Assembly: GCF_000703165.1 (NCBI RefSeq)
Contig: NZ_JNLQ01000002.1
Coordinates: 620,001-684,000, forward strand
Direction of reading: 5' to 3'
DNA from: Butyrivibrio sp. AE3004
GTDB lineage: Bacteria > Bacillota > Clostridia > Lachnospirales > Lachnospiraceae
DNA length: 64,000 nt
The position numbers and the translations under genes are program-made. The notes under the pieces were generated by a model. That model saw nothing but the letters and a program-made list of their open reading frames with translations. It had not been told where the DNA came from and ran no database searches. Of the stretch, positions 17,783 through 40,938 are shown one piece after another (position 1 is the stretch's first letter; each line of letters starts with the position of its first letter).

Positions 17783-18437
17783 CGTACTTTTTAAAGGCAC
17801 CAATATGATAAGACTTCTAAAGGGACTCTGGGTATCGGTGGAAATAAGCCTGATATCGGTTGCAATAAGTATTGCACTTGGTCTCGTGGTAGGAGTCTTA
17901 ATGACATCCAAAAACAGAATTCTTAAGATTTTGCTTAGGATATATCTTGAGATAGTCAGGATCATGCCCCAGATGGTACTTTTATTTATTGTATATTTTG
18001 GGACAACAAGAGTTTTCGGGATGAATATTTCCGCTGAGTTTTCCGCAATCATTGTTTTTGTGTTTTGGGGAACAGCGGAGATGGGTGATCTTGTAAGAGG
18101 ATCAATAAAAAGCATACCGAAAATTCAGTATGATTCTGCGTATGCACTTGGACTTAATAAATTCCAGGTACATTTCTTTATTATTTTTCCACAGACAATA
18201 AGAAGACTTATTCCTCTTTCCATAAACCTGGTTACCAGAATGGTAAAGACAACATCACTTGTGATGATGATAGGAATAGTCGAGGTATTGAAGGTTGCAC
18301 AGCAGATAATCGAAGCTAACAGAAAGGCATCACCTAATGCCGCCTTTGGTGTATTCGCAGTTGTATTTCTTCTTTATTTCCTTGTTTGCTGGCCGATTAG
18401 CAGATTTGCAGTTAAACTTGAAAAAAGGTGGGCGTAA
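17763..18437 (+). CDS. Amino acid ABC transporter permease 2
   Basis: The 224-residue second permease has the same fold: an EAA loop (YDSAYALGLNKFQVHFFIIFPQ), a VRIMPQMVLLF motif corresponding to the RNTPLLVQL element of its partner, and about five membrane segments. The strong GAGGAGGGTGC site lies inside the end of the first permease gene. The C-terminus (KLEKRWA) ends one base before the ATPase start codon. Two different permeases plus one ATPase is typical of polar amino acid uptake systems. Confidence 0.92.
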   Translation: MQSLGIDVLFKGTNMIRLLKGLWVSVEISLISVAISIALGLVVGVLMTSKNRILKILLRIYLEIVRIMPQMVLLFIVYFGTTRVFGMNISAEFSAIIVFVFWGTAEMGDLVRGSIKSIPKIQYDSAYALGLNKFQVHFFIIFPQTIRRLIPLSINLVTRMVKTTSLVMMIGIVEVLKVAQQIIEANRKASPNAAFGVFAVVFLLYFLVCWPISRFAVKLEKRWA

Positions 18438-18438
18438 G

Positions 18439-20089: not shown

Positions 20090-20118
20090 TTGACATGGTT
20101 GGTAAATGCTGATATATT
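20090..20118 (+). promoter_or_regulatory. cysK promoter with probable Rrf2 operator
   Basis: TTGACA (20090-20095), a 17-base spacer and TATATT (20113-20118) form a promoter. TTGAC-N6-GGTAAA overlaps it exactly as at metY (13052). The predicted leader also has a TATAAAC/GTTTATA hairpin before the AGGAGG site. Confidence 0.65.
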
Positions 20119-20174
20119 CGTGGAAATGTTTTGTCAGATATAAACATTCGTTTATAGAGATAGAGGAGGGAAGT

Positions 20175-20972
20175 ATGTCTAAGGTATTCAAAGGAATTCT
20201 TGATCTGGTCGGAAACACACCACTGCTTGAGGTGGTCAATATAGAAAAGGAGCTTGATCTTAAAGCTACCGTTCTTGTAAAACTTGAGTATTTTAATCCG
20301 GCAGGCAGCGTAAAAGACCGTATTGCAAAGGCAATGATAGAGGATGCGGAGGAAAGTGGTAAGTTAAAGCCGGGAGCTACTATCATCGAGCCCACAAGCG
20401 GAAATACGGGGATAGGACTTGCTGCCGTTGCTGCTTCAAAGGGATATAAGGTTATCCTTACAATGCCTGAAACTATGAGTGTTGAAAGAAGGAGTATTCT
20501 AAAAAACTACGGGGCTGAGATAGTTCTTACAGATGGAGCAAAGGGAATGAAGGGAGCAATCGAGAAAGCAGATGAGCTTTCAAAGGATATACCAGGAAGT
20601 TACATACCGGGCCAGTTTGTAAATCCTTCAAATCCTGCAATTCATAAGAAGACCACGGGTCCCGAAATCTGGAATGACACAGATGGCAAGGTGGACATAT
20701 TTATTGCAGGTGTAGGAACCATAACAGGAACCGGAGAATTCTTAAAGGAACAGAATCCCAATATTAAGGTTGTTGCATTGGAGCCTGAGGACTCACCGGT
20801 TCTTTCTGAAGGAAAGGCAGGCCCTCATAAGATACAGGGGATAGGAGCAGGTTTTGTTCCTGAAGTTCTAAATACAACGGTATTTGATGAAGTTTTCAAG
20901 GCACCTAATAAAGAATCTTTTGAAACAGCTAAGCTCTTATCGATAAAGGAAGGTATCTCTGTGGGAATATAA
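20175..20972 (+). pseudogene. cysK: Decayed cysteine synthase (cysK copy 1)
   Basis: The 265-residue product is clearly O-acetylserine sulfhydrylase-like, with the PLP lysine in NPAGSVKDR and the substrate loop EPTSGNTG. Two lesions stand out against the intact copies at 24419 and 30237. First, the PLP-phosphate loop GVGTGGT(V/I)TG has lost three residues and reads GVGTITG, an in-frame 9-base deletion. Second, the frame stops after ISVGI, where the others continue with SSGAA and about 38 more residues. The following DNA encodes part of a different protein, so a deletion truncated the gene. Start 20175 follows AGAGGAGGGAAGT. Enzyme activity is unlikely. Confidence 0.85.
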
Positions 20973-21538: not shown

Positions 21539-22729
21539 ATGAGCAGGTACGATTTTGATACAGTTATTGACAGGAAAAACACATCATCTTTGAAATATGA
21601 TTTTGGCCCTGAGAGAAAAAACAGGGATGATCTTCTTCCTTTATGGGTTGCGGATATGGATTTTAAACTGCCGGATGAAATAATTGAGGATATTGAAAAG
21701 AGAGTGAAGCATGGTATTTTTGGCTACACAGATCCTAAGGAAGATTATTATGCTGCAGTCAGGAACTGGTTTTTAAAACGTCATGGCATAACCGTTAAGG
21801 ATGAATGGAACACAATAACTCCAGGAGTAGTATATGCCATAGCAACTGCAATAAGGGCACTTACAGAGGAAGGAGATGCGGTACTTATACAGCAGCCGGT
21901 CTATTATCCTTTTACCGAGATGATAAAGCTTAACAACAGAAGGGCTGTCAATAATCAGCTAATATATAGGGATGGCTACTATGAAATAGATTTTAACGAT
22001 TTCGAAAACAAGATCATATCGGAAAAGGTAAAGCTTTTTTTGCTGTGCAGTCCTCATAATCCTGTAGGCAGGGTGTGGACAAAGGAGGAGCTTATTAAGA
22101 TTGCTGATATCTGCGAAAGAAACGGAGTGTATGTTTTTGCGGATGAGATTCATGCGGATTTTGTTTATAAAGGCTTTAAGCATATATCTTATCTGACACT
22201 TGGAGAGAAATACACTAAAAAGCTGATAGTCGGAACATCACCCAGCAAGACCTTCAATATAGCAGGATTACAGATTGCCAATATACTTATTCCCGATGAA
22301 AACACGAGAAAAGCTTTCAGGGTAGCAAATGAGGCAGCAGGCTATAGCCAGTGCAGTGCACTTGGGCTTACGGCAACAATATCAGCATACACCAAGGGAG
22401 GCGGGTGGCTGGATGAACTATTGGACTATCTTGAGGGGAATGTCTTTTTTATTAAAAATTATCTGGAGGAAAAAATACCGGAGGTCAGACTTATTCAGCC
22501 CGAGGGAACGTATCTTTTGTGGCTCGATTTTAGCCGGATAGCGGATCATCATAAAGACCTTGAAAAGATAATAGTTGATAAGGCTCATCTGTGGCTTGAT
22601 CCGGGAATAATCTTCGGAAGAGAGACTAATCTGTTTGAAAGAATAAATATCGCAGCGCCTAGAAAAATCTTAGAAAAGGCAATGGATCAGCTATACGATG
22701 CTATCAGTAATAATGATAGCGAACGATAA
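21539..22729 (+). CDS. MalY/PatB-type cystathionine beta-lyase aminotransferase
   Basis: The 396-residue PLP-dependent class I/II aminotransferase-fold enzyme belongs to the MalY/PatB group, which cleaves C-S bonds in cystathionine or cysteine. The N-terminus has the group's WVADMDFKLPDEIIEDIEKRV and FGYTD. Also visible are CSPHNPVGRVWTKEEL, FADEIHADFVYKG and the PLP lysine in TSPSKTFNIAGLQ. GATGAGGAG lies 7 bases before the ATG. Standing in a sulfur island, beta-lyase activity (homocysteine or sulfide release) is more likely than a pure aminotransferase role, but the specificity is inferred. Confidence 0.88.
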   Translation: MSRYDFDTVIDRKNTSSLKYDFGPERKNRDDLLPLWVADMDFKLPDEIIEDIEKRVKHGIFGYTDPKEDYYAAVRNWFLKRHGITVKDEWNTITPGVVYAIATAIRALTEEGDAVLIQQPVYYPFTEMIKLNNRRAVNNQLIYRDGYYEIDFNDFENKIISEKVKLFLLCSPHNPVGRVWTKEELIKIADICERNGVYVFADEIHADFVYKGFKHISYLTLGEKYTKKLIVGTSPSKTFNIAGLQIANILIPDENTRKAFRVANEAAGYSQCSALGLTATISAYTKGGGWLDELLDYLEGNVFFIKNYLEEKIPEVRLIQPEGTYLLWLDFSRIADHHKDLEKIIVDKAHLWLDPGIIFGRETNLFERINIAAPRKILEKAMDQLYDAISNNDSER

Positions 22730-22991: not shown

Positions 22992-23068
22992 TACAAAAAA
23001 GAAGTTTATACAGACGGGGCGATTAGCATGAAAAAAATTACGTAATGCCCGGGGAGGAGGTAATAGAT

Positions 23069-24265
23069 ATGGCTTGCGGTGGTTGCAATAAATGTACTGA
23101 TGTCAACTGCAGTATAGAGACAAAGTGTCAGCAGCTTGACAGAAATATTTTGGATAAGTGGGGGGCAATCAGTTTTCCCATATATCAGACGGCGACATTT
23201 GCACATCCGGGACTTGGAGACAGCACCGGTTATGACTATACCAGGATGCAGAATCCTACGAGACAGCAGCTTGAATCAATCGTTGCTTATCTTGAGAACG
23301 GAAAGGACGCAATTGCCTTTGCCAGCGGAATGGCCGCTATAGCAACTATAATGGAGCTATTTAGTCCCGGGGATCATTTTATTATTGATGAGGACCTTTA
23401 TGGTGGAAGTATCAGGCTCTTTAATGAGATTAGTTTAAAAAATGGTCTGGAATACACAGCTGTCAGTCTGAGTAAAGAAGATATAAGACCTTATATCAGG
23501 GAAAACACTAAGGCTGTTTACCTTGAGACGCCCACAAATCCCATGATGAATGTGACGGATATTTTAAAGCTTTCCGAGGTTACGAAGGAAAAGGGATTAC
23601 TTCTTATAGTTGATAACACCTTTTTATCACCTTATTTTCAAAATCCTTTAAATCTTGGTGCTGATATAGTCATTCATTCAGGAACAAAATTCCTCGGTGG
23701 ACATCATGACACTATAGGTGGTTTTGTGGTGGTAAAGGATGAAGCTTTGGACGAGAGGCTTAGATTCATCTATAAGACGACGGGGGCGGGATTATCACCC
23801 TTTGACAGCTGGCTCATCCTTAGAGGAATCAGAACCCTTGCGGTAAGGCTGGACAGAGCACAGGAAAATGCTTTAAAGCTCGCAAGATATTTAAAGACAA
23901 ATAAGCATGTGACAAGGGTTATTTATCCGGGGCTTCCGGAACATCCCGGATACGAGATTATGAAAAAACAGGCAAGAGGCTTTGGAGCAATGCTTACCTT
24001 TGAAGTAGACAGTCCTGAATTTGCTCATTCTATATTGAATAATGTCCAGCTTATCTATTTTGCAGAGAGCCTTGGTGGAACAGAGACACTTATCACATAT
24101 CCAATAACACAGACTCATGCGGATGTTCCCAAAGACCTTCTTTTGAAAAATGGAATAAACGACAGGGTTTTACGACTCTCTGTAGGAATTGAGGGAATAA
24201 CGGACCTTATTTGTGAATTTAACAGAGTCTTTGCTATAGCTGAAAAAGAAGCCGGGGAACAGTGA
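23069..24265 (+). CDS. Trans-sulfuration PLP enzyme with Cys-rich N-terminus
   Basis: The 398-residue Cys/Met metabolism PLP enzyme is similar to cystathionine gamma-lyase, beta-lyase and gamma-synthase. Seen are YDYTRMQNPTRQQLE, FASGMAAIATIMEL, the DNTFLSPYFQNPL segment and the PLP lysine in IHSGTKFLGGHHDT. The start is 23069 because GGGGAGGAGG lies 8 bases upstream. The first 20 residues are unusual: Cys at 3, 6, 9, 14 and 20 (CxxCxxCx4Cx5C), before the normal start of the family fold. Such a cluster could bind zinc or an Fe-S centre, or sense thiols. Substrate specificity cannot be read from the sequence. Confidence 0.87.
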   Translation: MACGGCNKCTDVNCSIETKCQQLDRNILDKWGAISFPIYQTATFAHPGLGDSTGYDYTRMQNPTRQQLESIVAYLENGKDAIAFASGMAAIATIMELFSPGDHFIIDEDLYGGSIRLFNEISLKNGLEYTAVSLSKEDIRPYIRENTKAVYLETPTNPMMNVTDILKLSEVTKEKGLLLIVDNTFLSPYFQNPLNLGADIVIHSGTKFLGGHHDTIGGFVVVKDEALDERLRFIYKTTGAGLSPFDSWLILRGIRTLAVRLDRAQENALKLARYLKTNKHVTRVIYPGLPEHPGYEIMKKQARGFGAMLTFEVDSPEFAHSILNNVQLIYFAESLGGTETLITYPITQTHADVPKDLLLKNGINDRVLRLSVGIEGITDLICEFNRVFAIAEKEAGEQ

Positions 24266-24418: not shown

Positions 24419-25354
24419 ATGGCAGATATAAAAGAAAGCGCATTGGAGCTTATTGGAGGAACACCCATACTTAAACTTAACGGCTACAGCAAGGCAGCAG
24501 GAGTTACAGAGGCAACTCTTCTTGCAAAGCTCGAATATTTAAATCCCGCAGGATCGGTTAAGGACAGAGTAGCACTTAGCATGATCGAGGATGCTGAGAA
24601 GAAAGGAAAGCTCAAACCCGGAGCTACGATCATTGAACCTACCAGCGGAAATACAGGAATCGGACTTGCAGCAGTTGCAGCTGCAAAGGGATACAAAGCA
24701 ATACTTACACTTCCTGATACAATGAGTGTTGAGAGAAGAAATCTCTTGAAGGCTTACGGCGCTCAGATCGTACTTACGGAAGGCGCAAAGGGTATGAAGG
24801 GTGCAATTGCAAAGGCAGAGGAGCTTGAAAAGGAAATTGAAGGATCAATCATCCTTGGACAGTTTGAAAATCCGGCAAATCCGGAGGTTCACAGAAAAAC
24901 CACAGGACCTGAAATCTGGAAACAGACAGACGGTAAAGTAGACATCTTTGTTGCAGGTGTTGGTACAGGCGGAACAGTTACAGGTGTGGGTGAGTTCTTA
25001 AAGGAGCTTAATCCCGATGTTAAGATTGTAGCAGTAGAGCCTGCAAGCAGCCCGGTTCTCTCACAGGGAACAGCAGGCGCACACAAGATTCAGGGAATCG
25101 GAGCAGGCTTTGTTCCTGAAACACTCAATACCAAGATTTATGATGAAGTTATTCCGATAGAGAATGATGACGCTTTTGCAGAAGGTAAGAAGTTTGCGGT
25201 TTCAGAGGGAATTCTTGTAGGAATATCATCAGGTGCAGCACTTAAGGCAGCAACAATACTTGCAAAGAGAGAAGAGAATAAGGGCAAGAATATAGTTGTT
25301 CTTCTTCCCGATTCAGGTGACAGATACCTTTCAACAGCGCTTTTCGCAGATTAA
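24419..25354 (+). CDS. cysK: Cysteine synthase (cysK copy 2, intact)
   Basis: The 311-residue O-acetylserine sulfhydrylase makes cysteine from O-acetylserine and sulfide. Intact motifs are PLP lysine [11 protein letters not shown], substrate loop [10 protein letters not shown], phosphate loop [10 protein letters not shown], and the C-terminal GISSGAA and [23 protein letters not shown] precedes the ATG. It follows the trans-sulfuration gene by 153 bases and is followed by a terminator, so it is not part of the nifB operon. It is the reference against which the decayed copy at 20175 is judged. Confidence 0.96.
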
Positions 25355-25517: not shown

Positions 25518-26387
25518 ATGGCTACAGACGAACATATAATTTTAAAGGAACATCCGTGCTTTGGACCATGCAAAAAGAATAAAGGAAGGATTCATCTGCC
25601 GGTGGCTCCCGGATGCAATATTGAGTGCCGGTTTTGCGATAGAAAGATAAATGAAGATGAGCAAAGACCGGGGGTTACAAGTGCAGTACTTGAACCTGAG
25701 GAGGCAGCAGGCTTTGTGGAACTGGCAATTGAGAAATGCCCGGAAATTACGGTAGTTGGAATTGCAGGGCCGGGTGACACTTTGGCGACAGACAGAGCAC
25801 TTAAAACATTCAGACTTTTAAGAGGAAAATTTCCAAAGCTGATAAGGTGCATGAGTACCAATGGACTTCTTCTCGATGAAAAGGCAGAGGAAGTTGCCGA
25901 ACTGATAGATACCTTAACGGTGACGGTGAATGCGGTAGATCCTGAGATACAGGCACAGATAAATAACAAGATCATCTATCACGGAAAAATTTATACAGGA
26001 ATTGAAGCAGCAAAGATACTTATAAGAAATCAATTAAGTGGCATCAGAAAAGTTGCAAAGGCAGGAACTCTTGTAAAAGTAAATACAGTTTTGGTGCCCG
26101 GGATAAACGATAAGCATATAGAAGAGGTTGCAGCTACGGTAAAGGCAGCGGGAGCGTCAATCTACAATATAATCCCGCTTATTCCGCAGAATGATATGAA
26201 GGACATAGCTGCACCGACCTGCGAGGAGCTTCACAGGGCGAGACAGGAAGCAGAGCTTTACATAAATGTTTTCAGACACTGTCAGCACTGCAGGGCAGAC
26301 GCTGTTGGAGTTCCGGGTGTTTACGACATCGGAGCAAAGCTTTATCAGGGAAGATTAAGTGTAAAGGAGACGTTTTCTCATGGCTGA
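25518..26387 (+). CDS. nifB: NifB-like radical SAM cofactor synthase
   Basis: The 289-residue radical SAM protein matches NifB, which fuses two [4Fe-4S] units and inserts the central carbon to give the 8Fe-9S-C NifB-co/L-cluster. The SAM cluster motif CNIECRFC is at residues 33-40. The NifB-specific extra ligand sites are present: HPCFGPC near residue 12 and HCQHCRADAVG near the C-terminus. The usual C-terminal NifX-like domain is absent and is encoded by the next gene, which overlaps by 8 bases. The presence of NifB implies that the nitrogenase-like proteins downstream carry a complex Fe-S cofactor rather than only simple clusters. Confidence 0.93.
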   Translation: MATDEHIILKEHPCFGPCKKNKGRIHLPVAPGCNIECRFCDRKINEDEQRPGVTSAVLEPEEAAGFVELAIEKCPEITVVGIAGPGDTLATDRALKTFRLLRGKFPKLIRCMSTNGLLLDEKAEEVAELIDTLTVTVNAVDPEIQAQINNKIIYHGKIYTGIEAAKILIRNQLSGIRKVAKAGTLVKVNTVLVPGINDKHIEEVAATVKAAGASIYNIIPLIPQNDMKDIAAPTCEELHRARQEAELYINVFRHCQHCRADAVGVPGVYDIGAKLYQGRLSVKETFSHG

Positions 26388-26793
26388 TGAAAAGTTCAAG
26401 GTTGCGGTGGCAACGTCTGATGGAATAAATGTTGATTCTCACTTTGGTCATGTGACCGAATTCACCATATATGATGTGGATGTAAATTCCGGTGAGGGGG
26501 AGCCGGCAGAATCAAGGGAAATAAGTGTTGCGGGCTGCAGCGACGGAAGCTGCGGAGAAGTAGGAACCTTTGACAGGATTGCCGAAAGGCTTTCCGATGT
26601 GGAATACGTGCTTGCAGCAAAAATCGGTCCTCGTGCGGTAATGGCACTTGGAAGAGCAAACATAATCGCTATAGATGCAGTTATTCCCATAGACAAAGCA
26701 CTGTCCAAATTAAAGGACTACAGAGATAAGAAAAAGCAGAAGGAAGAACGGGCAAGGAGAATATTATCCGAAAACGGGATAGTAGATAAATAA
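26380..26793 (+). CDS. NifX/NafY-like cofactor-binding protein
   Basis: The 137-residue protein has the dinitrogenase iron-molybdenum cofactor-binding fold found in NifX, NafY, VnfX and the C-terminus of long NifB proteins. The pattern AVATSDGINVDSHFGHVTEF at the start and ADEV-like strands are typical; His in SHFGH is the candidate cofactor ligand. A lysine/arginine-rich tail (DKKKQKEERARR) ends it. It overlaps nifB by 8 bases, so the two products are probably made together and act as a split NifB-NifX. It likely carries the cofactor to the D/K-like proteins. Confidence 0.85.
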   Translation: MADEKFKVAVATSDGINVDSHFGHVTEFTIYDVDVNSGEGEPAESREISVAGCSDGSCGEVGTFDRIAERLSDVEYVLAAKIGPRAVMALGRANIIAIDAVIPIDKALSKLKDYRDKKKQKEERARRILSENGIVDK

Positions 26794-26818
26794 AAAGGAA
26801 AAGAAGAGGAGAAAAATT

Positions 26819-27256
26819 ATGGCATTAACACATGAAGAAATTGAAAACTATCTTAAGAGTACAAAGAGAATTCTTTTGTCAACGGTGACAGAAGACAATC
26901 AGGCAGATGTAAGAATCCTAGGTGCTATCGCGACAGACGGTGTAAAGACTTATTTTTCCACACAGTCAAATGCAAGAAAGGTTGCCCAGATTGAGAAAAA
27001 CGATAACGTTGCAATCTATTTTGAAGCACCCGGACAGGAATTTCCGAATTATGTAAATGCAACTGTGTATGGCAAGGCAAGGAAGGTTACCTGTGAAAAA
27101 GGAATTGAAAAGGCAGCAGCACTCATAAAAGAAAAACTCCCTAAATTCGAGCTTACTGAGGACAAGAGTATTTTTGTCGTTGAACCAAAACAGATAAAAA
27201 TCTTTAATTCCTCAGCTGAACTGGCACAGGACAAGGTTCAGATAGTTGAATTTTAA
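26819..27256 (+). CDS. FMN-binding split-barrel (PNPOx-like) protein
   Basis: The 145-residue protein of the pyridoxamine 5'-phosphate oxidase-like split-barrel superfamily has RILLSTVTEDNQADVRILGA and FSTQSNARKVAQIEKNDNVAIYFE in the usual positions. Such proteins bind FMN or F420 and perform two-electron reductions. AAGAGGAG precedes the ATG. Its place inside the nitrogenase-like operon, 25 bases after the NifX-like gene and 62 before the K-like gene, suggests an electron-transfer or substrate-processing role. That is inference; no pyridoxine gene is nearby. Confidence 0.82.
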   Translation: MALTHEEIENYLKSTKRILLSTVTEDNQADVRILGAIATDGVKTYFSTQSNARKVAQIEKNDNVAIYFEAPGQEFPNYVNATVYGKARKVTCEKGIEKAAALIKEKLPKFELTEDKSIFVVEPKQIKIFNSSAELAQDKVQIVEF

Positions 27257-27318
27257 TCATTTGTTTAGATATGAAGTGTTTGATTTAAACGCTGACAGAT
27301 GAAAGGAGAATAGAAATA

Positions 27319-28653
27319 ATGAGTGATTTTATAGAGCGCTCCAAATTTTCATGTGCCCTGGGAGGTGCGCTTTCAACTATAGCAGCTATTCCGAAGGCTG
27401 TTCCCATCGTTCATGCATCAGGCGGATGTGCTGCGGCTTTGTCCGGAACCTATAACCTGTCCGCAGGTTACAGAGGTGTCGGATATTGCGGAGGGAATAT
27501 GATCCCTACATCTAATATCTCACAGAGCCATATAGTATTCGGTGGTGAGAGTAAGCTGGAGGGACAGATTGAGGGAACACTTAAATATATAAAGGGCGAT
27601 CTATATCTGGTTGTAACCGGTTGTCAGACGGAAATGATAGGTGACGATGCGGTTGGAATAGCTGACAGATATCGTGATCAGAATGTTATAGGTATAAACA
27701 CGCCGGGATTTTTAGGAAATACTCTCAGAGGATATGATGCAGTACTAAGTGCACTTGTTAAGAATTTTATTGAGAAAAAAGAAGAGAAGGCTCCAAAGAC
27801 AATAAACCTTCTCGGTATCGTACCCGGCCATGATGTTTTTTATCGTGGAAACATTGGGCATTTAAAGAATCTTCTGGAAAAGATAGGAGTTAAGGCAAAT
27901 ACCTTTTTCGGAGACGGAGAATCGGTAGAGAAGATAAAAAACTATGGGGATGCTTCACTTAGCGTGGTTGTTTCCGAAACAGCGGGACAGATTACTGCAA
28001 AGGCATTTGAAACTGTTCACAAAATACCGTACATAACTACCGAATTACCGATAGGCCCCAAAGCTTCAGAAAGATTCCTTCGTCTTATCGGAGAAAAGCT
28101 TGGAATAGATACAGCTGTCATCGACAAGGTGGTTGAAGAAGAGACAAAGTATTTCTATTCATACTTCGAAAGAATTGTAGATGTTGCTTCGGATCTTGAT
28201 TTCCAGAGATATGTGGTTGCCATCACCGACAGCTACTATGCGTATCCGCTAGTGGATTTCGTATCTGAAGAGCTTGGATGGATACCACATTTCGTAGCGG
28301 TAAACGATCTTCAGGATAAGAGTAAACAGGAGGCGTACACAAAGAAATTTGAGAACCTTACATCACAGACAAAGCCTTCAGTGATATACGAAGATAAATT
28401 CAGTTATGTGAAAAAGAAGCTTCGTGCGAGCTGGCCTTATAACAATAACCAAAAATATTATGATTCACTGGGCCCCCTTTACATAATCGGAAGTGTGGTT
28501 GAACGTAATTTGGCAGCAGATTACGGCGCAGGATTTTTAACCGTAGCATTCCCTGTTAGTAACAGAGCAGTACTTAATAAAGGCTATGCCGGATTCAGGG
28601 GTGCATTATCACTTGTTGAAGACTTACTTACGAATCTGGTTGCATCACGATAG
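27319..28653 (+). CDS. Nitrogenase-like component 1, K-type (beta) subunit
   Basis: The 444-residue nitrogenase component 1 oxidoreductase domain protein aligns with NifK by its P-cluster ligands: Cys12 (SKFSCALGGAL, like NifK Cys70), Cys37 (HASGGCAAALSG, like Cys95) and Cys102 (VTGCQTEMIGDD, like Cys153). Cys57 is an extra one. It lacks the long N-terminal extension of true NifK and is shorter than the usual 510-520 residues. It should pair with the D-type subunit encoded 17 bases downstream to form a P-cluster at their interface. Context points to a nitrogenase-like reductase of the sulfur-metabolism (methylthio-alkane reductase-related) type rather than nitrogen fixation. Confidence 0.88.
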   Translation: MSDFIERSKFSCALGGALSTIAAIPKAVPIVHASGGCAAALSGTYNLSAGYRGVGYCGGNMIPTSNISQSHIVFGGESKLEGQIEGTLKYIKGDLYLVVTGCQTEMIGDDAVGIADRYRDQNVIGINTPGFLGNTLRGYDAVLSALVKNFIEKKEEKAPKTINLLGIVPGHDVFYRGNIGHLKNLLEKIGVKANTFFGDGESVEKIKNYGDASLSVVVSETAGQITAKAFETVHKIPYITTELPIGPKASERFLRLIGEKLGIDTAVIDKVVEEETKYFYSYFERIVDVASDLDFQRYVVAITDSYYAYPLVDFVSEELGWIPHFVAVNDLQDKSKQEAYTKKFENLTSQTKPSVIYEDKFSYVKKKLRASWPYNNNQKYYDSLGPLYIIGSVVERNLAADYGAGFLTVAFPVSNRAVLNKGYAGFRGALSLVEDLLTNLVASR

Positions 28654-28670
28654 GAAGGTGGGATGAGAAA

Positions 28671-30212
28671 ATGCCAAAATTATTGAATGAGAATCTTAAA
28701 TACAATTTTTTAGCAGCTGATGAACCACCTGTAAGAGATGAGCGTGTAGGCGGTTGTACAGCATATTGCGGTTCCTGTGCAGGACTTAAGGGGGATTTTA
28801 AAAGCGGATGTGCGCAGGCACAAAACAGAAAGTTTTCACAGAGTGGCGGGTGTCAGCTTGGACTTGCACTCGGAATAATCAACTCCCTGACAAGGGCAAT
28901 AACAATAGTTCATTCACCACTTGGCTGCTGCTCGGGACTTGCAGGTATGGCAGGCGTAAGAAGCACAAGCAGAGCATCGAGAGGACTCGTGGTTGAGGAA
29001 CAGCCCTGGATCCATACAAATATGGATGAACTGGATGTAGTAAACGGCGGCGTTGAAAAGCTTAAGAAAGCCATTTTATATGCTGAAGAGGAATATCATC
29101 CCGAGGTAATTGCAATAGTAAACGGATGTGTTCCCGGAATTATAGGCGATGATATTGATGCTGTAGTAAGAGAACTGGAGTCACAGATTTCCGCAAGACT
29201 TGTTCCGATCCACTGTGAAGGCTTTAAGAGCCGTTTTGTTTCATCAGGCTATGATGCAGCAAATCACGGTATTTTGAAATATCTCATCCGTGATCCTAAG
29301 GAATATCCGCAGCTTACCGAAGAGGCACAGATAAAATACGACTTTGCAAAGAAATATCGTACAAGCAGAACAGTAAACATCTTCAACGTAGGCTCAAACA
29401 GTAATGGAGATGAGGTTGAACTTTCAAGACTTGTAAGTGCACTTGGGCTTATCCCGAGAGTCGTGCCTTTAAATGCAACGGTTGATGATCTTGATCATCT
29501 GGGAGAAGCAGCGCTGAATGTCAGCATATGTGCAACTCATGACGATTATCTTCTTGGTCATTTGAAGGAGCGCTACGGAACGCCCTACATTCTGGATGTA
29601 CTTCCCATTGGAATAAATTGCACCAATACATGGATCAGGAAAATCGCAGCCCACTTTCATCTTGAGGCTGAGGCAGAGAGGCTTATAGAGCAGGAGAACA
29701 GAGAACTGAAGGAGGCAATTGCTCCTTTTGTGGAAGTCCTTAAGGGCAAGAAGATATTTGTAGGAGGCGGTGAGACACGTATTCTCACAACAGCGGATTT
29801 TTACAGAAGCATAGGAATGGAGCTTGTGGGAATAAAGGCACATAACCTTGACCGATTTGTTGAAAATCTTCTTAGCGATATCAAAGATCCAAATCTTACG
29901 GTAGAGGTAGCGGCAGGACAGCCCGCTGAAGAGCTTAATACATTAACCAGATTAAAGCCTGATATTTATATAGGGCATGCAGGTGCGAACGGCTGGGTTT
30001 CAAAGATAGGTATTCCTAACATTCCACTGTTTGGAGCACCAATAAACTACATGGGATATTCCGGAGCGTTTGAGCTTGCAAGGAGAGCAGCAAGAGCACT
30101 TAAGAATACAAACTTTTCTAAGAACATTGGCAAATATGTGGGACATCCGCTGACTGAAACCTGGATGAATCTTGATCCTAACGACAACATCATTCAGGGC
30201 GACAGATTCTAA
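28671..30212 (+). CDS. Nitrogenase-like component 1, D-type (alpha) subunit
   Basis: This is the 513-residue partner of the K-type subunit. P-cluster ligands are Cys61 (SGGCQLGLAL), Cys86/87 (HSPLGCCSG) and Cys153 (VNGCVPGIIGDD), matching NifD Cys62, 88 and 154. Cys287 in NVSICATHDDYLLGHLKERYGTPY aligns with NifD Cys275, the cofactor ligand, so a cofactor site exists. The region equivalent to NifD His442 (after GIPNIPLFGAPINYMGYSGAFEL) has no His. A distinctive N-terminal block carries four more Cys (29, 33, 36, 47) before the first P-cluster ligand and might hold another Fe-S centre. It is the probable catalytic subunit; the substrate is unknown, probably an organosulfur compound. Confidence 0.88.
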   Translation: MPKLLNENLKYNFLAADEPPVRDERVGGCTAYCGSCAGLKGDFKSGCAQAQNRKFSQSGGCQLGLALGIINSLTRAITIVHSPLGCCSGLAGMAGVRSTSRASRGLVVEEQPWIHTNMDELDVVNGGVEKLKKAILYAEEEYHPEVIAIVNGCVPGIIGDDIDAVVRELESQISARLVPIHCEGFKSRFVSSGYDAANHGILKYLIRDPKEYPQLTEEAQIKYDFAKKYRTSRTVNIFNVGSNSNGDEVELSRLVSALGLIPRVVPLNATVDDLDHLGEAALNVSICATHDDYLLGHLKERYGTPYILDVLPIGINCTNTWIRKIAAHFHLEAEAERLIEQENRELKEAIAPFVEVLKGKKIFVGGGETRILTTADFYRSIGMELVGIKAHNLDRFVENLLSDIKDPNLTVEVAAGQPAEELNTLTRLKPDIYIGHAGANGWVSKIGIPNIPLFGAPINYMGYSGAFELARRAARALKNTNFSKNIGKYVGHPLTETWMNLDPNDNIIQGDRF

Positions 30213-30236
30213 TGAAGACGAGAAAGGAAGAGCAAA

Positions 30237-32146
<1,910 letters not shown>

Positions 32147-32179
32147 GAATAAGTTGTGAGTTAAGAAAGGAGGGAGCCT

Positions 32180-33130
32180 ATGAAATCTAAGTTCAGAACA
32201 GTGTTCCCCATATTGGGCGTACTACTTGCATTGAGCGTAAATATCATAATTCCAAATCATAAAAAATTAAAATACGCGGAATTGCCACATTACAGATACT
32301 TCCTATGGATAGCGCTGGCAGTGGTGATCCTCCTGGCAATTTTGGCTTTATTTAATGAGAGAGTGAGGGAAAGGTATTCCTATCGGGGGTATTTCATATG
32401 CGGGGTATTTGCATTTTTGAACATATTGGATCTGGTAACCGCAAAGTTTCTGATCCTACCACAGTTGTATTTCCCAAGCATAGCAAGAATATTTAATGTT
32501 TATTTCGAAGATAAGGAGCTCCTCCTCCAATGTCTTGAAAGTTCTTTTTTACTGTTGGTCAAAGGAATAATAATCGGATTTATTCTTGGTATGATCTGTG
32601 GAATTACGGTGGGGTGGAGTAAAGATGCAAATTACTGGATTTACCCCCTGATCCGCATACTTGGACCGATTCCATCATCAACCTGGACACCGCTTGCGCT
32701 GGTTGTATTTCCGTCAGCTCAGGGAGCTGCGGTTTTTCTGATAGCATTCGGTGTCTGGTTCCAGATAACAATCCTTACCTGCTCAGGTATTCAGAGTGTA
32801 AAAAAAGCTTACTTTGAAGTATCTTCAACACTCGGTGCTAGTAATCTGCAGAATCTTTTTAAGATCGCGGTTCCTGCAGCATCACCATCGATTTTCCTTG
32901 GCTTTTTCAATGCCACATGTTCCTCCTTTGTGGCACTTATGGCAGCTGAGATGATCGGATGCAAATCGGGTCTTGGCTGGTACGTAAACTGGCAAAAGAC
33001 CATGCTCTCTTACCCTAATGTCTATGCGGGACTTATAGTTGTAGCAATTTTCTGTTACATCCTTGTTACCATTCAGTTCAAGGTAAGAGACAAATTATTA
33101 TCATGGCAGGAGGGTGTTGTCAAATGGTAG
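32180..33130 (+). CDS. SsuC/TauC-type ABC transporter permease
   Basis: The 316-residue permease of the nitrate/sulfonate/taurine class has the EAA loop (KAYFEVSSTLGASNLQNLFKIAVPAASPSIF, near residues 210-240) and ILGPIPSSTWTPLALVVFP. It has about seven membrane segments. It is longer than usual because of two extra N-terminal segments (about residues 8-27 and 38-58). An AAAGGAGGGAG site precedes the ATG, 34 bases after nifH. The end overlaps the ATPase gene by 7 bases. It is probably the importer for the organosulfur substrate of the nitrogenase-like enzyme. Confidence 0.88.
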   Translation: MKSKFRTVFPILGVLLALSVNIIIPNHKKLKYAELPHYRYFLWIALAVVILLAILALFNERVRERYSYRGYFICGVFAFLNILDLVTAKFLILPQLYFPSIARIFNVYFEDKELLLQCLESSFLLLVKGIIIGFILGMICGITVGWSKDANYWIYPLIRILGPIPSSTWTPLALVVFPSAQGAAVFLIAFGVWFQITILTCSGIQSVKKAYFEVSSTLGASNLQNLFKIAVPAASPSIFLGFFNATCSSFVALMAAEMIGCKSGLGWYVNWQKTMLSYPNVYAGLIVVAIFCYILVTIQFKVRDKLLSWQEGVVKW

Positions 33131-33930
33131 AAACAGGAAGCACCGGTGCAATATCGGCAAGGAATGTGCGAAAAGAATTTATCGATCCGAACGGAGAGAC
33201 GGTTATTGCGCTTGAGAAAGTGGACGTAGATATAAAGCCGGGGGAATTTATATGCCTGATAGGACCTTCCGGTTGCGGAAAATCAACGTTCTTAAGGCTT
33301 GTTGCAGGACTTATTGAGCCTACGGAGGGAGCCTTATTCCTTGATGGAGATGAGATTACAAAACCGGGATATGAGAGAGGACTTGTTTTCCAGGATCCTA
33401 CTCTTTTTCCCTGGTTGAACATATATGAGAATGTGGCTTTTGGATTAAAGACACGACACATTTTTAAAGAAAAGAAAGATGATGTAGAGGAATTTATTAA
33501 GCTGGTAAAGCTGGAAGGGTTTGAAAAAGCTCTTCCGCATCATTTATCAGGTGGTATGGCACAAAGGGCGGGACTCGCAAGGGCTCTTGTAAATCATCCT
33601 AAGGTACTTCTTCTTGATGAACCCTTTGGAGCTCTTGATGCTTTTACAAGAATGAATATGCAGGATGAACTTTTGCGTATCTGGAAAGAGCGGGGAACGA
33701 CGATGATCATGGTTACACATGACGTTGATGAGGCTGTTTATTTAAGTGACCGCATTTTTGTAATGACACCGAGACCGGCAAAAATCGAGTCAATTGTGGA
33801 TGTGGAAATAGGGAGAAATGAGACCCTTGGCCGTAAACGTGACAGCGTGGATTTCCTTAATCTAAGGTCAAAAATATTGCAGATTCTGGATTATACCGGA
33901 AAAGCTGCAGAGATTGAGTATGTGATTTAA
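33124..33930 (+). CDS. SsuB/TauB-type ABC transporter ATP-binding protein
   Basis: The 268-residue ATPase has Walker A GPSGCGKST, Q loop VFQDPTLFPWLNIYENVAFGL, signature LSGGMAQRAGLARAL, Walker B VLLLDEPFGALD and VTHDVDEAVYLSDRI. The FPWL segment after the Q loop is characteristic of the nitrate/sulfonate/taurine group. Start 33124 is preferred because GGAGGG lies at 33107-33112. It overlaps the end of the permease by 7 bases, indicating translational coupling. Confidence 0.92.
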   Translation: MVETGSTGAISARNVRKEFIDPNGETVIALEKVDVDIKPGEFICLIGPSGCGKSTFLRLVAGLIEPTEGALFLDGDEITKPGYERGLVFQDPTLFPWLNIYENVAFGLKTRHIFKEKKDDVEEFIKLVKLEGFEKALPHHLSGGMAQRAGLARALVNHPKVLLLDEPFGALDAFTRMNMQDELLRIWKERGTTMIMVTHDVDEAVYLSDRIFVMTPRPAKIESIVDVEIGRNETLGRKRDSVDFLNLRSKILQILDYTGKAAEIEYVI

Positions 33931-33946
33931 AAAGAGGAGAAATATT

Positions 33947-35113
33947 ATGAAGAAAAGATTTGTTGCATTAATATTGGCAACTGTTTTTGCACTATCTGTC
34001 CTTTCTGGCTGCGGAAGCGGAGCTTTAAAAGAAACTGGGGGTGTTGTGACAGAAAATATCGAAGATGAATCTGAACCAAAGGCACCGGATATAGTTGATG
34101 AGGATTTTGACCTTGATGCTGCTTTTGCAAAAGAAACAGGAGTAGGTGATCCCATAAGAATAGTAAGTACCTTTGAAGGTACCTGCCAGGTTCAGACACA
34201 GATAGCATATCTGCTTGGCTTTTATGAACAGGAAGGTCTTGTAGAAGGTGTTGATTATGACTTTGTGGATGCAGGTGGAGAAACGGGAGCGGTTCTACTG
34301 TCAACCGATCAGGCAGACGTGGCTATAGGACTTATTTCAGGTATGCTACAGCCACTTGATAACGGTCTTGAAGCTAAGGCAATCGCCGGACTACATACCG
34401 GCTGTGTGACAATTGTAACTCTTAAGGACAGCGGAATAGAGTCCACTAAGGATCTTGCAGGAAAGACAATCGGAGTTACGGCACTTTCAAGTTCACAGCA
34501 TATAGCAGCGCTTCGTGCACTTAACTATGAGGGCTTTTCAGGAGATGATGTGGAATTTGTTGTCTATGACAAGGATTCAATTGAGCAGGCACTTTTAAAC
34601 GGAGCAGTTGATGCTATCGGACTCGGAGATTATAAGGCTGCTATCCTTGCAAGGGATGAAGGAGCAAAGGTTATATTTGATACTTCAAATGATGAGAGAC
34701 TTAAGGATGAAAACTGCTGTGTACTTTTTGCCAGCAGCGCATCCATAGAGAGAAAGCCTGCAACACTTGCAAAGCTTGTTACCGCAATCCAGAAGGCTTC
34801 TGTATGGATCGCGAACAATCCGGAACTTTCCGCGCAGATTCAGGTAGCTCAGGGATATACAGTGGGTGATGTAAATGTAAATACCGATCTTTTAAAGACA
34901 TATCAGTATCCTACTTCGCTTAGCTCTTTGAAGGAAGCTATTTACAGAAACTTTGATGATGCACAGGTTTTAGGACTGCTCAAAGAGGATACGGACAAGG
35001 CTGCTCTTATACAGACAAGCTACCTGTTCCTTCCGGGAATTAAAGACGGACTTGATATAACAGAAATCGATCCGCCAAAGGATCCTCAGCAGTTTTTAAC
35101 TGCAAAGGAATAA
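33947..35113 (+). CDS. SsuA-like ABC transporter substrate-binding lipoprotein
   Basis: The 388-residue solute-binding protein of the NMT1/SsuA class has a lipoprotein signal (MKKRFVALI..., lipobox LSGC at about residues 19-22) and an acidic linker. The binding fold then begins near PIRIVSTFEGTCQVQTQIAYLLGFYEQEG. DQADVAIGLISGMLQPL and KDLAGKTIGVTALSSSQHIAAL are typical positions. The ligand pocket includes the FEGTCQVQ segment with one Cys. It completes the transporter encoded by the two previous genes. The ligand is unknown; sulfonates, sulfides or other small anions are possible. Confidence 0.87.
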   Translation: MKKRFVALILATVFALSVLSGCGSGALKETGGVVTENIEDESEPKAPDIVDEDFDLDAAFAKETGVGDPIRIVSTFEGTCQVQTQIAYLLGFYEQEGLVEGVDYDFVDAGGETGAVLLSTDQADVAIGLISGMLQPLDNGLEAKAIAGLHTGCVTIVTLKDSGIESTKDLAGKTIGVTALSSSQHIAALRALNYEGFSGDDVEFVVYDKDSIEQALLNGAVDAIGLGDYKAAILARDEGAKVIFDTSNDERLKDENCCVLFASSASIERKPATLAKLVTAIQKASVWIANNPELSAQIQVAQGYTVGDVNVNTDLLKTYQYPTSLSSLKEAIYRNFDDAQVLGLLKEDTDKAALIQTSYLFLPGIKDGLDITEIDPPKDPQQFLTAKE

Positions 35114-35144: not shown

Positions 35145-35582
35145 ATGAAAAACAGAATTATATCAGGAATTACATTTATTATACTTGGACTTTTAATTGC
35201 AGTTGGACCGCAGTCAATATTTGCGGTGTGTGGTCCCATGGAGGACGGTAAGTTTATGAAATGTCACTGGACAGCACAGGCTGAACTGGGAATAGGTCTT
35301 GCAATTGTGTTTTTGGCAGCCGGGATTCTTTTCTTTAAATCAGAACAGATTCGTGCGGGATTAAGCATAGCGGCCTTTGCGCTTTCAATCGTTTCAGTTC
35401 TTGTCCCCACAAAGCTTATCGGAGTATGTGGTGGTGAACATATGCAGTGTCATTCACTTACAAAACCGGTACTTATCATTCTTGGCATTGCAGGTGCGGT
35501 TTTTGCTCTTGCAAATACATTTTTCCTCTTAAAAAACAAGGAGAAAGTACAGGTAGTTCAAGAATTAAGAAAAGGAGCTTAA
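35145..35582 (+). CDS. DUF4418 family membrane protein
   Basis: The 145-residue protein has four predicted membrane segments (about residues 5-25, 48-65, 70-92, 108-130). Two similar external motifs are VCGPMEDGKFMKCHW (about residues 28-42) and VCGGEHMQCH (about 93-102), each a Cys...Cys-His element that could bind metal or form disulfides. DUF4418 proteins are commonly encoded beside a FtsX-type permease and a LolD-type ATPase, as here, 5 bases upstream. It is 31 bases after the substrate-binding protein, so it probably belongs to the same transcript. The function is unknown. Confidence 0.8.
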   Translation: MKNRIISGITFIILGLLIAVGPQSIFAVCGPMEDGKFMKCHWTAQAELGIGLAIVFLAAGILFFKSEQIRAGLSIAAFALSIVSVLVPTKLIGVCGGEHMQCHSLTKPVLIILGIAGAVFALANTFFLLKNKEKVQVVQELRKGA

Positions 35583-35587
35583 TTCCT

Positions 35588-36799
35588 ATGAATAATAAAC
35601 GTTTGGGAATTCCATATATAGCCTTTTTAAACGTAAAGAACAGTCTCACAAGATCAGTGGGACTTGTTCTTTTAATGGCAGTACTTTCTTTTGTCCTTTT
35701 TGGTGGAGCTATACTTTCAAAAAGCTTAAGCAACGGACTTGGACAAATGAAGGACAGGCTTGGTGCTGATCTTATGATCGTTCCCGTTGAAAATCAAAAT
35801 GATCTGGAGGCTGTTTTGTTAAAGGGAGAGCCAAGCTGTTTTTATTTTAAAAGAACGCTTGAGGGAAAGGTTGCAGGGCTGGAAGGTGTTTCACTTTGCT
35901 CTTCCCAGTTTTTTCTGACATCGCTTGAAGCAGAGTGCTGTGATGCAAAGGTTCAGCTTATTGGTTTTGACCCTGATACCGATTTTGTAATTCAGCCCTG
36001 GATCAGGAAGACCTTTGACGGAGAGCTGAAAAACGGCGCTGTGATAGTCGGAAACGACATACAGACTGAATCGGGCGGGTTCATTAAGCTTTTTGGCAAG
36101 GAATATGAGATTGCTGCAAAGCTTGATGCCACAGGAACAGGACTTGACCAGGCAGTCTATGCGACAAAGGATACAATACTTAGAATGTATGCTGATGCTG
36201 AAGAAAAGGGACAGCGCTTTTTGGAAGACGCAGATCCAAAGGAGGCGATATCAGCCATACTTGTGCGCGTTCAGGAAGGCTATGACAGAAAAACACTTAT
36301 AAAGAACATAAGACGGGAAATTGGTGGTGTTAAGATTGTTGAATCACAGAACATGATAACCGGAACTGCTGATAACATGAAAAATGTGGCAATCTTCTTA
36401 TATATTTTTTCCGGTCTGTTTTTTCTGACTTCTGTAGCAACTCTTTTGCTGGTATTTTCAGTTATTTCAAACGAAAGGAAAAAGGAATTTGCGGTTCTGA
36501 GAACTCTTGGAGCAACCAGGAAGAAGCTTGCGGGAATTATACTTTCGGAGTCTGCAATAATAACCGGAACGGGTGGACTTGTAGGTGCAATTTTCGCAGC
36601 AATCATAATATTTCCGCTTAATGTGTACATAGGAGACAGACTGGGGCTTCCCTATCTTCTTCCGAATGCGGGGATGATAGCCTTTATCTTTCTTGTTGAT
36701 CTTGTTGTTTCATTTTTGACAGGACCTCTTTCAGCAGCTCTTTTGGCAGTGAGAATCAGTAGAGCGGAAACCTATCTGACAATGAGGGAGGGTGAATAA
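35588..36799 (+). CDS. MacB/FtsX-type ABC transporter permease
   Basis: This 403-residue type VII ABC permease has an N-terminal membrane segment (residues about 22-45), a large extracytoplasmic MacB-PCD-like domain, and three C-terminal segments forming the FtsX domain. Start 35588 follows AAAGGAGC and gives MNNKRLGIPYIAFLNVKNS. A longer version would run through the DUF4418 gene. The RTLGATRKKLAGIILSESAII stretch is the FtsX coupling region. It works with the adjacent ATPase in mechanotransmission or export, not import. Confidence 0.87.
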   Translation: MNNKRLGIPYIAFLNVKNSLTRSVGLVLLMAVLSFVLFGGAILSKSLSNGLGQMKDRLGADLMIVPVENQNDLEAVLLKGEPSCFYFKRTLEGKVAGLEGVSLCSSQFFLTSLEAECCDAKVQLIGFDPDTDFVIQPWIRKTFDGELKNGAVIVGNDIQTESGGFIKLFGKEYEIAAKLDATGTGLDQAVYATKDTILRMYADAEEKGQRFLEDADPKEAISAILVRVQEGYDRKTLIKNIRREIGGVKIVESQNMITGTADNMKNVAIFLYIFSGLFFLTSVATLLLVFSVISNERKKEFAVLRTLGATRKKLAGIILSESAIITGTGGLVGAIFAAIIIFPLNVYIGDRLGLPYLLPNAGMIAFIFLVDLVVSFLTGPLSAALLAVRISRAETYLTMREGE

Positions 36800-37483
36800 A
36801 TGACTTTGGAAATAAGGGGACTTGAGAAAAAGTTTATACAGGGAAATCGGGAAATATATGCGGTAAGAGATGCAGGTCTTTTTGTTCCCGGCGGAAGCTT
36901 TATTAGCATTATCGGTCGTTCCGGGAGCGGGAAAAGCACATTGCTTAATCTTATCGCAGGTCTTCTTGAACCATCAGGCGGAACGATTGTACTTAATACA
37001 AGAGAGATAGCAAGGCTTTCCGATGAGGAGGCATCATACCTTAGAAATTCCGAAATCGGATATATAATGCAGGGGAAAAGTCTTCTGAAAAATTTAACGG
37101 TTCTTGATAATGTACGCCTTCCATTTTACCTGTTTAACAGAGAAGGAGATGACACGGAAAGGGCGAGACAGCTTCTTGACAGGGTTGGCATTCTTCATCT
37201 TGAAAATGCTTATCCCTCCAGCCTTTCCGGAGGTGAGCTAAGGAGAGTTTCAATTGCGAGAGCGCTAATCAATAATCCCGGAATATTACTTGCTGATGAG
37301 CCTACGAGCGACCTTGACAGGGAAAATACATCAGGGATTCTTAAACTTTTCAGAAAAATTGCGGATGAGGGGACAACCGTAATCATGGTTACACACGAAC
37401 TTGATACTCTTAAGTACGGAGATGCTGTTTACAGGATGGAGGAGGGTATTCTTACTAAGGAAAACGGAGCTGCAATTGCGTAG
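36800..37483 (+). CDS. MacB/LolD-type ABC transporter ATP-binding protein
   Basis: The 227-residue ATPase is encoded immediately after the permease stop. Walker A GRSGSGKST, signature LSGGELRRVSIARAL, Walker B ILLADEPTSDLD and switch VTHELDT are the LolD/MacB pattern. It is probably the end of the long operon that starts at nifB. The 236 bases after it hold no gene and lead into the SGNH esterase gene. Confidence 0.92.
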   Translation: MTLEIRGLEKKFIQGNREIYAVRDAGLFVPGGSFISIIGRSGSGKSTLLNLIAGLLEPSGGTIVLNTREIARLSDEEASYLRNSEIGYIMQGKSLLKNLTVLDNVRLPFYLFNREGDDTERARQLLDRVGILHLENAYPSSLSGGELRRVSIARALINNPGILLADEPTSDLDRENTSGILKLFRKIADEGTTVIMVTHELDTLKYGDAVYRMEEGILTKENGAAIA

Positions 37484-40737: not shown

Positions 40738-40749
40738 TTTAAAAGATTT

Positions 40750-40916
40750 GAAGATAGAGGTTGCGTATTTTATCAGTATGAATTCTGATGCGACAGGCGC
40801 ATATGAGGGATTCGGAAAGGACAATACGCCGAAGGATGAGCTTTCCTGAAGAGCTTGTACCTGGGCATACAGCTAATAACTGTATGACTGTCATCGTAAG
40901 ATGGGGAGCTATCGTG
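40750..40916 (+). ncRNA. Lysine riboswitch (L box)
   Basis: The conserved lysine aptamer blocks are visible in order: GATAGAGGTTGCG, ATCAGTA, the GCCGAAGGATGA stretch, CCTGAAGAGC, CTGGGCAT, TGACTGTCATCG and ATGGGGAGCTATC. The P1 stem GATAG (40753-40757) pairs with CTATC (40909-40913). A terminator hairpin follows, so lysine binding should stop transcription before dapA. Confidence 0.95.
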
Positions 40917-40938
40917 CTAATATGATCAATGGTGATTT

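Follow-up and report, generated by a model that had tools for sequence, protein, structure and literature searches.

What does the nitrogenase-like operon of Butyrivibrio sp. AE3004 do? It occupies positions 25518-35113 of a stretch of 64,000 nucleotides (contig NZ_JNLQ01000002.1, positions 620,001 to 684,000), which we call the window and whose numbering we use throughout. A first-pass annotation of the window had described the operon as part of a sulfur-assimilation island and had related it to methylthio-alkane reductase (Mar). On balance, comparison of sequences and gene neighbourhoods leads us to read it as an organosulfur-scavenging pathway, in which an ATP-driven C-S reductase would release sulfide and the cysteine synthase CysK would capture it. 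The enzyme is probably Mar-like in its cofactor and chemistry, with another pocket and, probably, a different substrate and product.

Operon layout and gene assignments

Ten open reading frames (ORFs) lie on the plus strand, with intergenic gaps of at most 62 bases and two overlaps. The gap ahead of nifH is 71 bases when the ATG start is taken.

25518-26387, plus strand: nifB-like radical SAM enzyme, radical SAM domain only (TIGR01290, 272.3 bits, cut-off 343.65; PF04055)
26380-26793, plus strand: NifX-like stand-alone protein (PF02579, 58.6 bits, cut-off 26.3)
26819-27256, plus strand: PNPOx-type flavin mononucleotide split-barrel protein (PF01243, 49.1 bits, cut-off 28.1)
27319-28653, plus strand: K-like subunit (PF00148, 219.5 bits)
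28671-30212, plus strand: D-like subunit (PF00148, 245.8 bits)
30237-31217, plus strand: cysK, cysteine synthase A (TIGR01139, 441.1 bits, cut-off 350.95)
31289-32146, plus strand: nifH-like reductase, the ORF reaching TTG 31220 (TIGR01287, 455.4 bits, cut-off 394.35)
32180-33130, plus strand: ATP-binding cassette (ABC) permease of the SsuC/TauC/NrtB-like superfamily (PF00528; top NCBIfam model SaoP, 104.7 bits, cut-off 295)
33103-33930, plus strand: ABC ATPase (PF00005; top NCBIfam model TIGR01184, 245.8 bits, cut-off 291.8)
33947-35113, plus strand: substrate-binding protein (SBP) with NMT1 fold (PF09084, 91.6 bits)

The ORFs, NCBIfam and Pfam bear out the boundaries and families of the ten-gene, single-strand operon as first annotated. 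The NifX-like half of the TIGR01290 model is a separate gene here, and the C-terminal part of that model also recognises the NifX-like protein. The NifB-like protein has the motifs HPC, CxxxCxxC and CxxCRADAVG, which we take to be NifB hallmarks. It is presumed to make the [Fe8S9C] precursor cluster, with the NifX-like protein as the presumed cluster carrier. The NifH-like protein keeps the P-loop and both cluster cysteine motifs. The operon CysK contains SVKDR, TSGNTG and GTGGT, presumably its pyridoxal phosphate and substrate motifs.

The D and K subunits keep the metal ligands of Mar in a different pocket

The solved structures closest to the operon D and K are MarD and MarK of Mar, which is known from Rhodospirillum rubrum (MarBHDK; structures 9fmg and 9d9u; PMC12552129). 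The top match of the K subunit is MarK 9d9u_C (E 3.7e-62), and its P-cluster cysteines C12, C37 and C102 align with MarK C32, C56 and C121. The D subunit keeps C61, C86 and C153, and the two subunits together have all six P-cluster cysteines. C287 and H436 of D match Mar Cys270 and His429, the ligands of the [Fe8S9C] cluster, and equivalents of both are present in 43 of 43 rows of the clade to which this D belongs (from L053 up).

All seven Mar pocket and hallmark positions that were checked differ in the window D (C73, Q74, H194, W195, F199, H375 and Arg428). Its pocket reads G-I-F-V-Y-N. The Arg428-His429 hallmark of Mar is missing: Gly precedes H436 in the window D, and none of the 43 clade rows has Arg there. 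Mar His194, Trp195, Phe199 and His375 are replaced in the clade by F or Y, V, Y and N, respectively, with H375 exceptionally retained in two of 43 rows (L079 and L082). Ahead of the P-cluster ligands, residues 29-47 of the window D hold four further cysteines (C29, C33, C36 and C47), and C47 is invariant in alignment A2.

D belongs to a K-before-D clade apart from Mar

D-like genes occur in 49 of 391 Clostridia genomes (E 1e-10 or better; true nitrogenases counted in). We used D trees of 57 and 92 sequences. The 92-sequence tree is a quick tree with long branches elsewhere in it; 59 of 151 rows were thinned out and the window D was included twice. The alignment covered ORFs of 430-640 amino acids with exact duplicates left out; the D of L086, a locus that also carries the K-D-cysK order, was dropped thereby.

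The trees separate a wide, mostly K-before-D clade with a 'GH' loop from a wide D-before-K clade with an 'RH' loop. MarD and the Mar-type Clostridia proteins (signature CQHWFHR) fall within the RH clade, with strong clade support. The window D has its own tight clade on a long stem (17 rows; Shimodaira-Hasegawa-like approximate likelihood-ratio support 100 in the 92-sequence tree). Isr-like Clostridia proteins (L027 and L039), which are without two of the D cysteines, a pattern reported for IsrD (PMC11423573), branch apart from it. Heliophilum NflD1 (L127, 782-2263), whose gene adjoins a nifH-like gene, was placed in the RH clade. Heliophilum NflDK1 served as proxy for the Nfa lineage of Endomicrobium proavitum, a name absent among the matches listed (the best 120 of 380, and 120 of 1041, most rows nameless) and among 80 of 223 relatives. 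The K-D pair of L127 lies in the wider clade of the window, at 41% identity. From gene order, by which names were matched to coordinates, we infer that this pair is Heliophilum NflDK2.

A phylogeny had been proposed in the first-pass annotation as the check on its reading, and it places D in a K-before-D clade of its own, apart from Mar, the Nfa proxy and the Isr-like proteins. Three Clostridia loci (L034, L037 and L011) form a further D clade that keeps four cysteines and has a loop without histidine.

Cysteine synthase is the fixed partner of K and D

The loci of relatives were the best 80 of 223, and clade counts refer to 44 loci (43 from the named collection and the window). In 41 of these 44, cysK starts directly after D on the same strand; where there is room on both sides the count is 34 of 35. 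L082 and L091 are exceptions at contig ends, and L078 is a real one. Elsewhere, an adjacent cysK was found in 18 of 43 other GH loci (14 before K, 4 after), 5 of 35 RH loci, one of six Mar-type loci and none of the 11 loci of D proteins without histidine. With room on both sides, these counts are 16/37, 3/17, 1/6 and 0/3. The arrangement of K before D with cysK, which had been noted as unlike the proteobacterial systems, is strengthened by these counts and is a feature of the whole clade.

In a cysK tree made from ORFs of 280-360 amino acids and at least 200 bits, 38 of 39 linked genes fell into one group (fork support 92, not starred), apart from the two other cysK genes of the window. Also in this group are four rows that bear the label unlinked, plus one that is linked to another clade. 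The 39th linked gene occupies the same position at L068 of Herbinix hemicellulosilytica but is a cysK of the housekeeping type. Sulfide as the product is the best explanation of the fixed CysK. A strict rule by which the window clade goes with CysK and the RH clade with O-acetylhomoserine (OAH) sulfhydrylase was considered and fails, because RH-type L154 has both genes and L156 a cysK-type gene.

The host lacks the usual routes of sulfate and sulfite assimilation

In the host genome (4.47 Mb; completeness 99.97) the operon K and D are the sole PF00148 genes, so that NifE and NifN are absent. NifV and ModB models gave nothing above cut-off in this genome, where weaker matches exist. The reported absence of NifE, NifN, NifV and molybdate transport genes agrees with the genome-wide search. 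The siroheme sulfite/nitrite reductase domain PF01077 was not found in this genome (control positive in 11 of 14 genomes), nor was the PAPS/APS reductase domain PF01507 (control positive in 14 of 14). Without these two domains the usual sulfate and sulfite assimilation routes are impossible. The host argues against sulfite as the product; the clade overall shows dependence neither way. With CysK as the fixed partner and a host without siroheme sulfite reductase, sulfide is a likelier product than methanethiol.

The importer and its four-cysteine binding protein

The importer scored below the curated cut-offs of sulfonate, taurine and nitrate importer models (SsuA_fam, 101.9 vs 163.5 bits; SsuC, 65.3 vs 347; SsuB-type, 182.8 vs 395). 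In a fold search, the NMT1 fold of the SBP matched Thi5, SsuA, TauA, NrtA, CmpA and DszB equally. Proteins that bind sulfonates, taurine, nitrate, bicarbonate or thiamine precursors have this fold in common. Since it is equally like many proteins, no ligand can be deduced from structure. The label 'organosulfur-type importer' given in the first pass therefore comes down to a superfamily match, with curated models below cut-off and a substrate unreadable from sequence.

Alignment A4 (the window SBP and 17 of 20 homologues above 140 bits) shows four invariant cysteines in the SBP, C80, C153 (in GxHxGC), C257 and C258, and the GxHxGC and CC motifs occur together in 23 of 70 binding proteins of the SBP cluster. 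Four invariant cysteines are unusual in a secreted protein of a strict anaerobe. They would suit the binding of a thiol, of a metal thiolate or of a metal; structural disulfides are also possible.

Among 150 family genomes, 25 have D-like genes (some probably true nitrogenases) and 16 have a member of the SBP family at E 1e-35 or better. The SBP family is present in 11 of the 25 genomes with a D-like gene vs five of the 125 without (Fisher p 8e-7), and in nine of these 11, the host included, the SBP and D genes are on the same contig, about 7 kb or less apart. Both motifs are also present in four of the five SBP-family genomes without D, which counts against exclusivity. In four D-less family genomes (L149-L152), Cys4 binding proteins stand with importer genes, and the neighbours name no pathway.

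Four of the 11 co-occurring loci were examined. The D proteins of L153, L154 and L155 are RH-type (CMVWFHR), and L156 has one RH-type D and one D without His. The importer stands alongside nifH in all four loci and nifB and NifX-like genes are present in three. FtsX-type genes occur in L153, L154 and L156, DUF4418 in two of the four, OAH sulfhydrylase in L153 and L154, and a cysK-type gene in L154 and L156. As the importer is found beside RH-type and other D proteins, it accompanies nitrogenase-like systems of several clades. Part of the loci have orthologues of the window importer; at others the importer, though of the same superfamily, is another one and has two permeases, and two SBPs of such importers that were checked are NMT1 by Pfam. 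In Myxococcota-labelled ('Deltaproteobacteria') metagenome-assembled genomes (MAGs), up to five tandem NMT1-type binding proteins stand upstream of K-D-cysK (e.g. L085, L093).

Proposed pathway and its alternatives

We propose the following sequence of steps. The ABC importer would take up a small sulfur compound unable to diffuse freely. NifB and NifX, judging from their conserved genes and the conserved ligands, would build the [Fe8S9C] cluster and deliver it to D. Electrons would pass from NifH through the P-cluster between D and K to the D cluster in single ATP-driven steps, as the conserved residues suggest. The C-S bond would be reductively cleaved at the D cluster and the sulfur released as sulfide. 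CysK would then combine sulfide with O-acetylserine to give cysteine, a step suggested by the fixed gene neighbourhood and by a host without sulfite reductase. Candidate substrates, which would need an importer and give sulfide in one enzyme, are a thiol, a thioether of which another enzyme processes the other half, and a sulfonate taken all the way down.

Of the original interpretation, a NifB-associated, Mar-like scaffold in sulfur assimilation that is no nitrogenase is upheld by the structure matches, ligands, D tree, two PF00148 genes and cysK linkage. Its product was given as sulfide or methanethiol for CysK and MetY; in view of the fixed partner and the host without sulfite reductase, the part on sulfide for CysK is the likelier one, rather than that on methanethiol. 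A wider proposal, which we put forward more tentatively, is that sulfur is removed completely as sulfide from imported organosulfur, in a biological hydrodesulfurisation for which a new Cys4 class of NMT1-fold SBPs, recognising thiols or metal thiolates, would deliver the compound. The operon might then be one of many sister systems in anaerobes whose neighbouring sulfhydrylase (CysK, OAH sulfhydrylase or both) tells the released product.

Several observations weigh against a sulfide-releasing, CysK-fed scavenging pathway. CysK could instead serve cluster assembly. RH-type L154, outside the window clade, has cysK together with OAH sulfhydrylase, and cysK lies within 5 kb in 27 of 43 other GH loci and 11 of 35 RH loci, so the cysK tie is not confined to the window clade and is only strictest there. 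PF01077 is present in 19 of 41 operon carriers of unstated completeness vs 70 of 150 family genomes, an equal share. nifH lies within 8.5 kb of D in 14 of 43 clade loci and nifB in 13 of 43, many of them on short contigs. To these we add the importer scores below cut-off given above. At gathering threshold, neither the window nor the 19 relatives scanned, out of 80 named ones, showed a riboswitch pointing to sulfur regulation; these relatives gave only tRNAs. A general replacement of sulfite reductase by the operon was also considered, and the co-occurrence with PF01077 gives it no support.

The operon could instead encode a methylthio-alkane reductase, with methylthio compounds yielding methanethiol and, via MetY, methionine. 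We give this little chance. MarD and MarK are the top solved matches, the metal ligands are the same and metY lies about 11 kb upstream. Against this stand the seven differing positions, the placement of Mar in another strongly supported D clade, the fixed partner CysK, and the K-D order vs D-K in six of six Mar-type loci. The pocket, the hallmark and the tree led us to reject Mar proper.

The chance is slightly smaller that a sulfonate or an inorganic sulfur oxyanion is fully reduced to sulfide (eight or six electrons) in place of a desulfonating enzyme plus sulfite reductase. The sulfonate-type importer superfamily, CysK and the host without sulfite reductase would fit, and large clusters suit multi-electron reduction. 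We know of no precedent, which counts against such a reaction, as does PF01077 in 19 of the 41 carriers.

It is improbable that the enzyme is an Isr-like sulfonate reductase that releases sulfite. The importer belongs to the SsuABC/TauABC-like superfamily and Isr itself pairs with an SsuCAB importer (PMC11423573). Since the host has no siroheme sulfite reductase, the usual way of assimilating sulfite would be closed to it. Isr of Rhodobacter capsulatus (IsrBHDK) has one of the three D P-cluster cysteines and no cofactor ligands, all of which are present in the window D, and its IsrB is BciD-like rather than NifB-like (PMC11423573). The ligands and the radical SAM partner led us to reject an Isr identity.

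Slightly less credible again is that cysK serves cofactor building, with cysteine as sulfur donor, and that the reaction of the enzyme is not sulfur assimilation. Cluster assembly requires cysteine, and genes for cysteine biosynthesis can occur in nif regions. With room on both sides, an adjacent cysK is missing in 14 of 17 RH loci and five of six Mar-type loci, which are expected to need the same clusters. The gene is placed with K-D and not with nifB, and PatB, cystathionine gamma-lyase (CGL) or OAH sulfhydrylase genes are also nearby.

An N2-fixing group IV-A enzyme, as claimed for E. proavitum, is very improbable: NifB, NifH and the cofactor ligands occur without NifEN as in that lineage (PMC9147875), but the Heliophilum homologue grouped with it there, as a proxy only, falls in the RH clade far from the window D, NifV and ModB are below cut-off, and sulfur genes lie all around the operon. 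A true nitrogenase was rejected because of the presence of two PF00148 genes only, NifV and ModB below cut-off, and the D tree.

Flanking genes

The following features lie outside the operon.

13186-14469: metY, about 11 kb upstream of nifB
16146-19179: cystine- or polar-amino-acid-type ABC importer, upstream of the operon
21539-22729, plus strand: PatB C-S lyase (NCBIfam)
23045-24265, plus strand: cystathionine gamma-lyase/synthase family gene (NCBIfam)
24419-25354, plus strand: housekeeping-type cysK (NCBIfam)
35145-35582, plus strand: DUF4418 protein
35447-36799, plus strand: FtsX-like permease ORF, start uncertain
36800-37483, plus strand: ATPase

In Butyrivibrio sp. YAB3001 (L062), a PatB and a CGL-type gene are interspersed with nifB and nifX. 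A third cysK frame in the window (20106-20972) has a shortened C-terminus and misses glycine-rich-loop residues compared with the neighbouring cysK, and is probably decaying.

The families of the module at 35145-37483 were named on L064 homologues. Within 10 kb of the clade loci, FtsX was found in 13 of 44 and DUF4418 in 10 of 44, and the module is a probable accessory to the operon, possibly an exporter or a lipoprotein-handling system. DUF4418, the FtsX-like permease and the ATPase also occur at L064 (6363-8654) and L153 (347-2661), beside several nitrogenase-like clades.

A lysine riboswitch (40747-40919, 112.9 bits) lies directly upstream of genes that look, by eye, like dapA and dapB. In a promoter scan, promoter-like sites were not in excess (39 vs a shuffle mean of 38.6). 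Terminators numbered 20 vs 14.4 in shuffles, and neither count was used as evidence.

Neighbourhoods and distribution

Single-linkage clustering of the neighbours at 79 of the 80 named loci gave cysK in 66, ATPases in 55 (a cluster that took in other ATPases), SBP in 50, permeases in 46, nifH in 34, nifB in 29, NifX-like genes in 25 and PNPOx in 12. A URO-D family methyltransferase was found near K-D in nine sister-clade loci and a B12-binding protein in eight (L095, L096 and others), with none in the window clade; corrinoid methyl transfer coupled to the nitrogenase-like enzyme is possible in these sister loci.

In the genus of the window, 41 of 79 genomes have a D-like gene (E 1e-20 or better), at widely differing identity to the window D. 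A close D was found only in the host itself (100%) and in G639 (96%), whose coordinates are those of Butyrivibrio sp. YAB3001; the next is at 40%. Related nitrogenase-like systems seem to have been swapped within the genus. Further carriers named among the matches listed include the cultured genera Anaerocolumna, Herbinix and Sporomusa, as well as Sporobacter termitidis and genomes labelled Pelosinus, together with rumen- and soil-labelled MAGs and termite-gut-like MAGs; isolate codes suggest that some of the carrier MAGs come from termite gut. Occurrence of the system is patchy, and transfer between lineages is probable.

Comparison with known systems

The general idea that nitrogenase-like proteins with cysteine synthase point to sulfur metabolism is already published. 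Dos Santos et al. 2012 (PMC3464626) reported that OAH sulfhydrylase or cysteine synthase commonly accompanies nitrogenase-like proteins that have the Cys275 equivalent, and described others beside ABC transporters, for which metal transport was suggested. In Pillotina corrugata, nifK and nifD share an operon with cysteine synthase (PMC13067680). MarHDK-like group IV-A genes were described in or near corrinoid methyltransferase clusters (PMC10418091), and the URO-D and B12-binding neighbours of our sister-clade loci may be of this kind. Of the many group IV clades, the literature surveyed assigns a function to Cfb, Mar, Isr and, as claimed, Nfa; among these, Mar and Isr are the relatives characterised as cleaving C-S bonds. 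Our search of mainly open-access literature, main texts only, found no description of the Cys4 importer family, of the clade signature or of K-D-cysK as a fixed unit.

The operon is a genuine, widespread but patchy variant of the nitrogenase-like C-S reductases. Its nitrogenase-type ligands, remade pocket and candidate product-capturing partner lead to a testable prediction, the release of sulfide. If this is true, fermentative anaerobes, some of them unable to reduce sulfite, use nitrogenase cofactors to scavenge sulfur. It would also help to account for the common nifHDK-like genes in bacteria not known as nitrogen fixers.

With Mar the operon shares the fold, the six P-cluster cysteines, the Cys270/His429 ligands and NifB- and NifH-type partners. 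It differs in its replaced pocket, the K-D order, the CysK partner, the importer within the operon and its separate clade. Isr is alike in the nitrogenase-like H-D-K set, a radical SAM partner, an SsuCAB-type importer and a role in sulfur assimilation, and it is reported to release sulfite (PMC11423573), whereas the window D keeps all P-cluster cysteines and both ligands and its partner is NifB-like. NfaHDK and NflDK1 (group IV-A; PMC9147875) also belong to group IV and have NifB and NifH without NifEN. Unlike the window system, they have an RH loop, keep W195 and F199, show the D-K order, lie in the other clade by the Heliophilum proxy, and are claimed to fix N2. The SsuABC, TauABC and NrtABC importers share fold and gene set with the window importer, which stays below their curated cut-offs and has an SBP with four invariant cysteines. 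Heliophilum NflDK2, whose role is given as unknown in PMC9147875, has the same K-D order and GH loop and lies in the same wider clade, with a pocket that reads F-M-I-V-Y-H in place of the G-I-F-V-Y-N of the window D.

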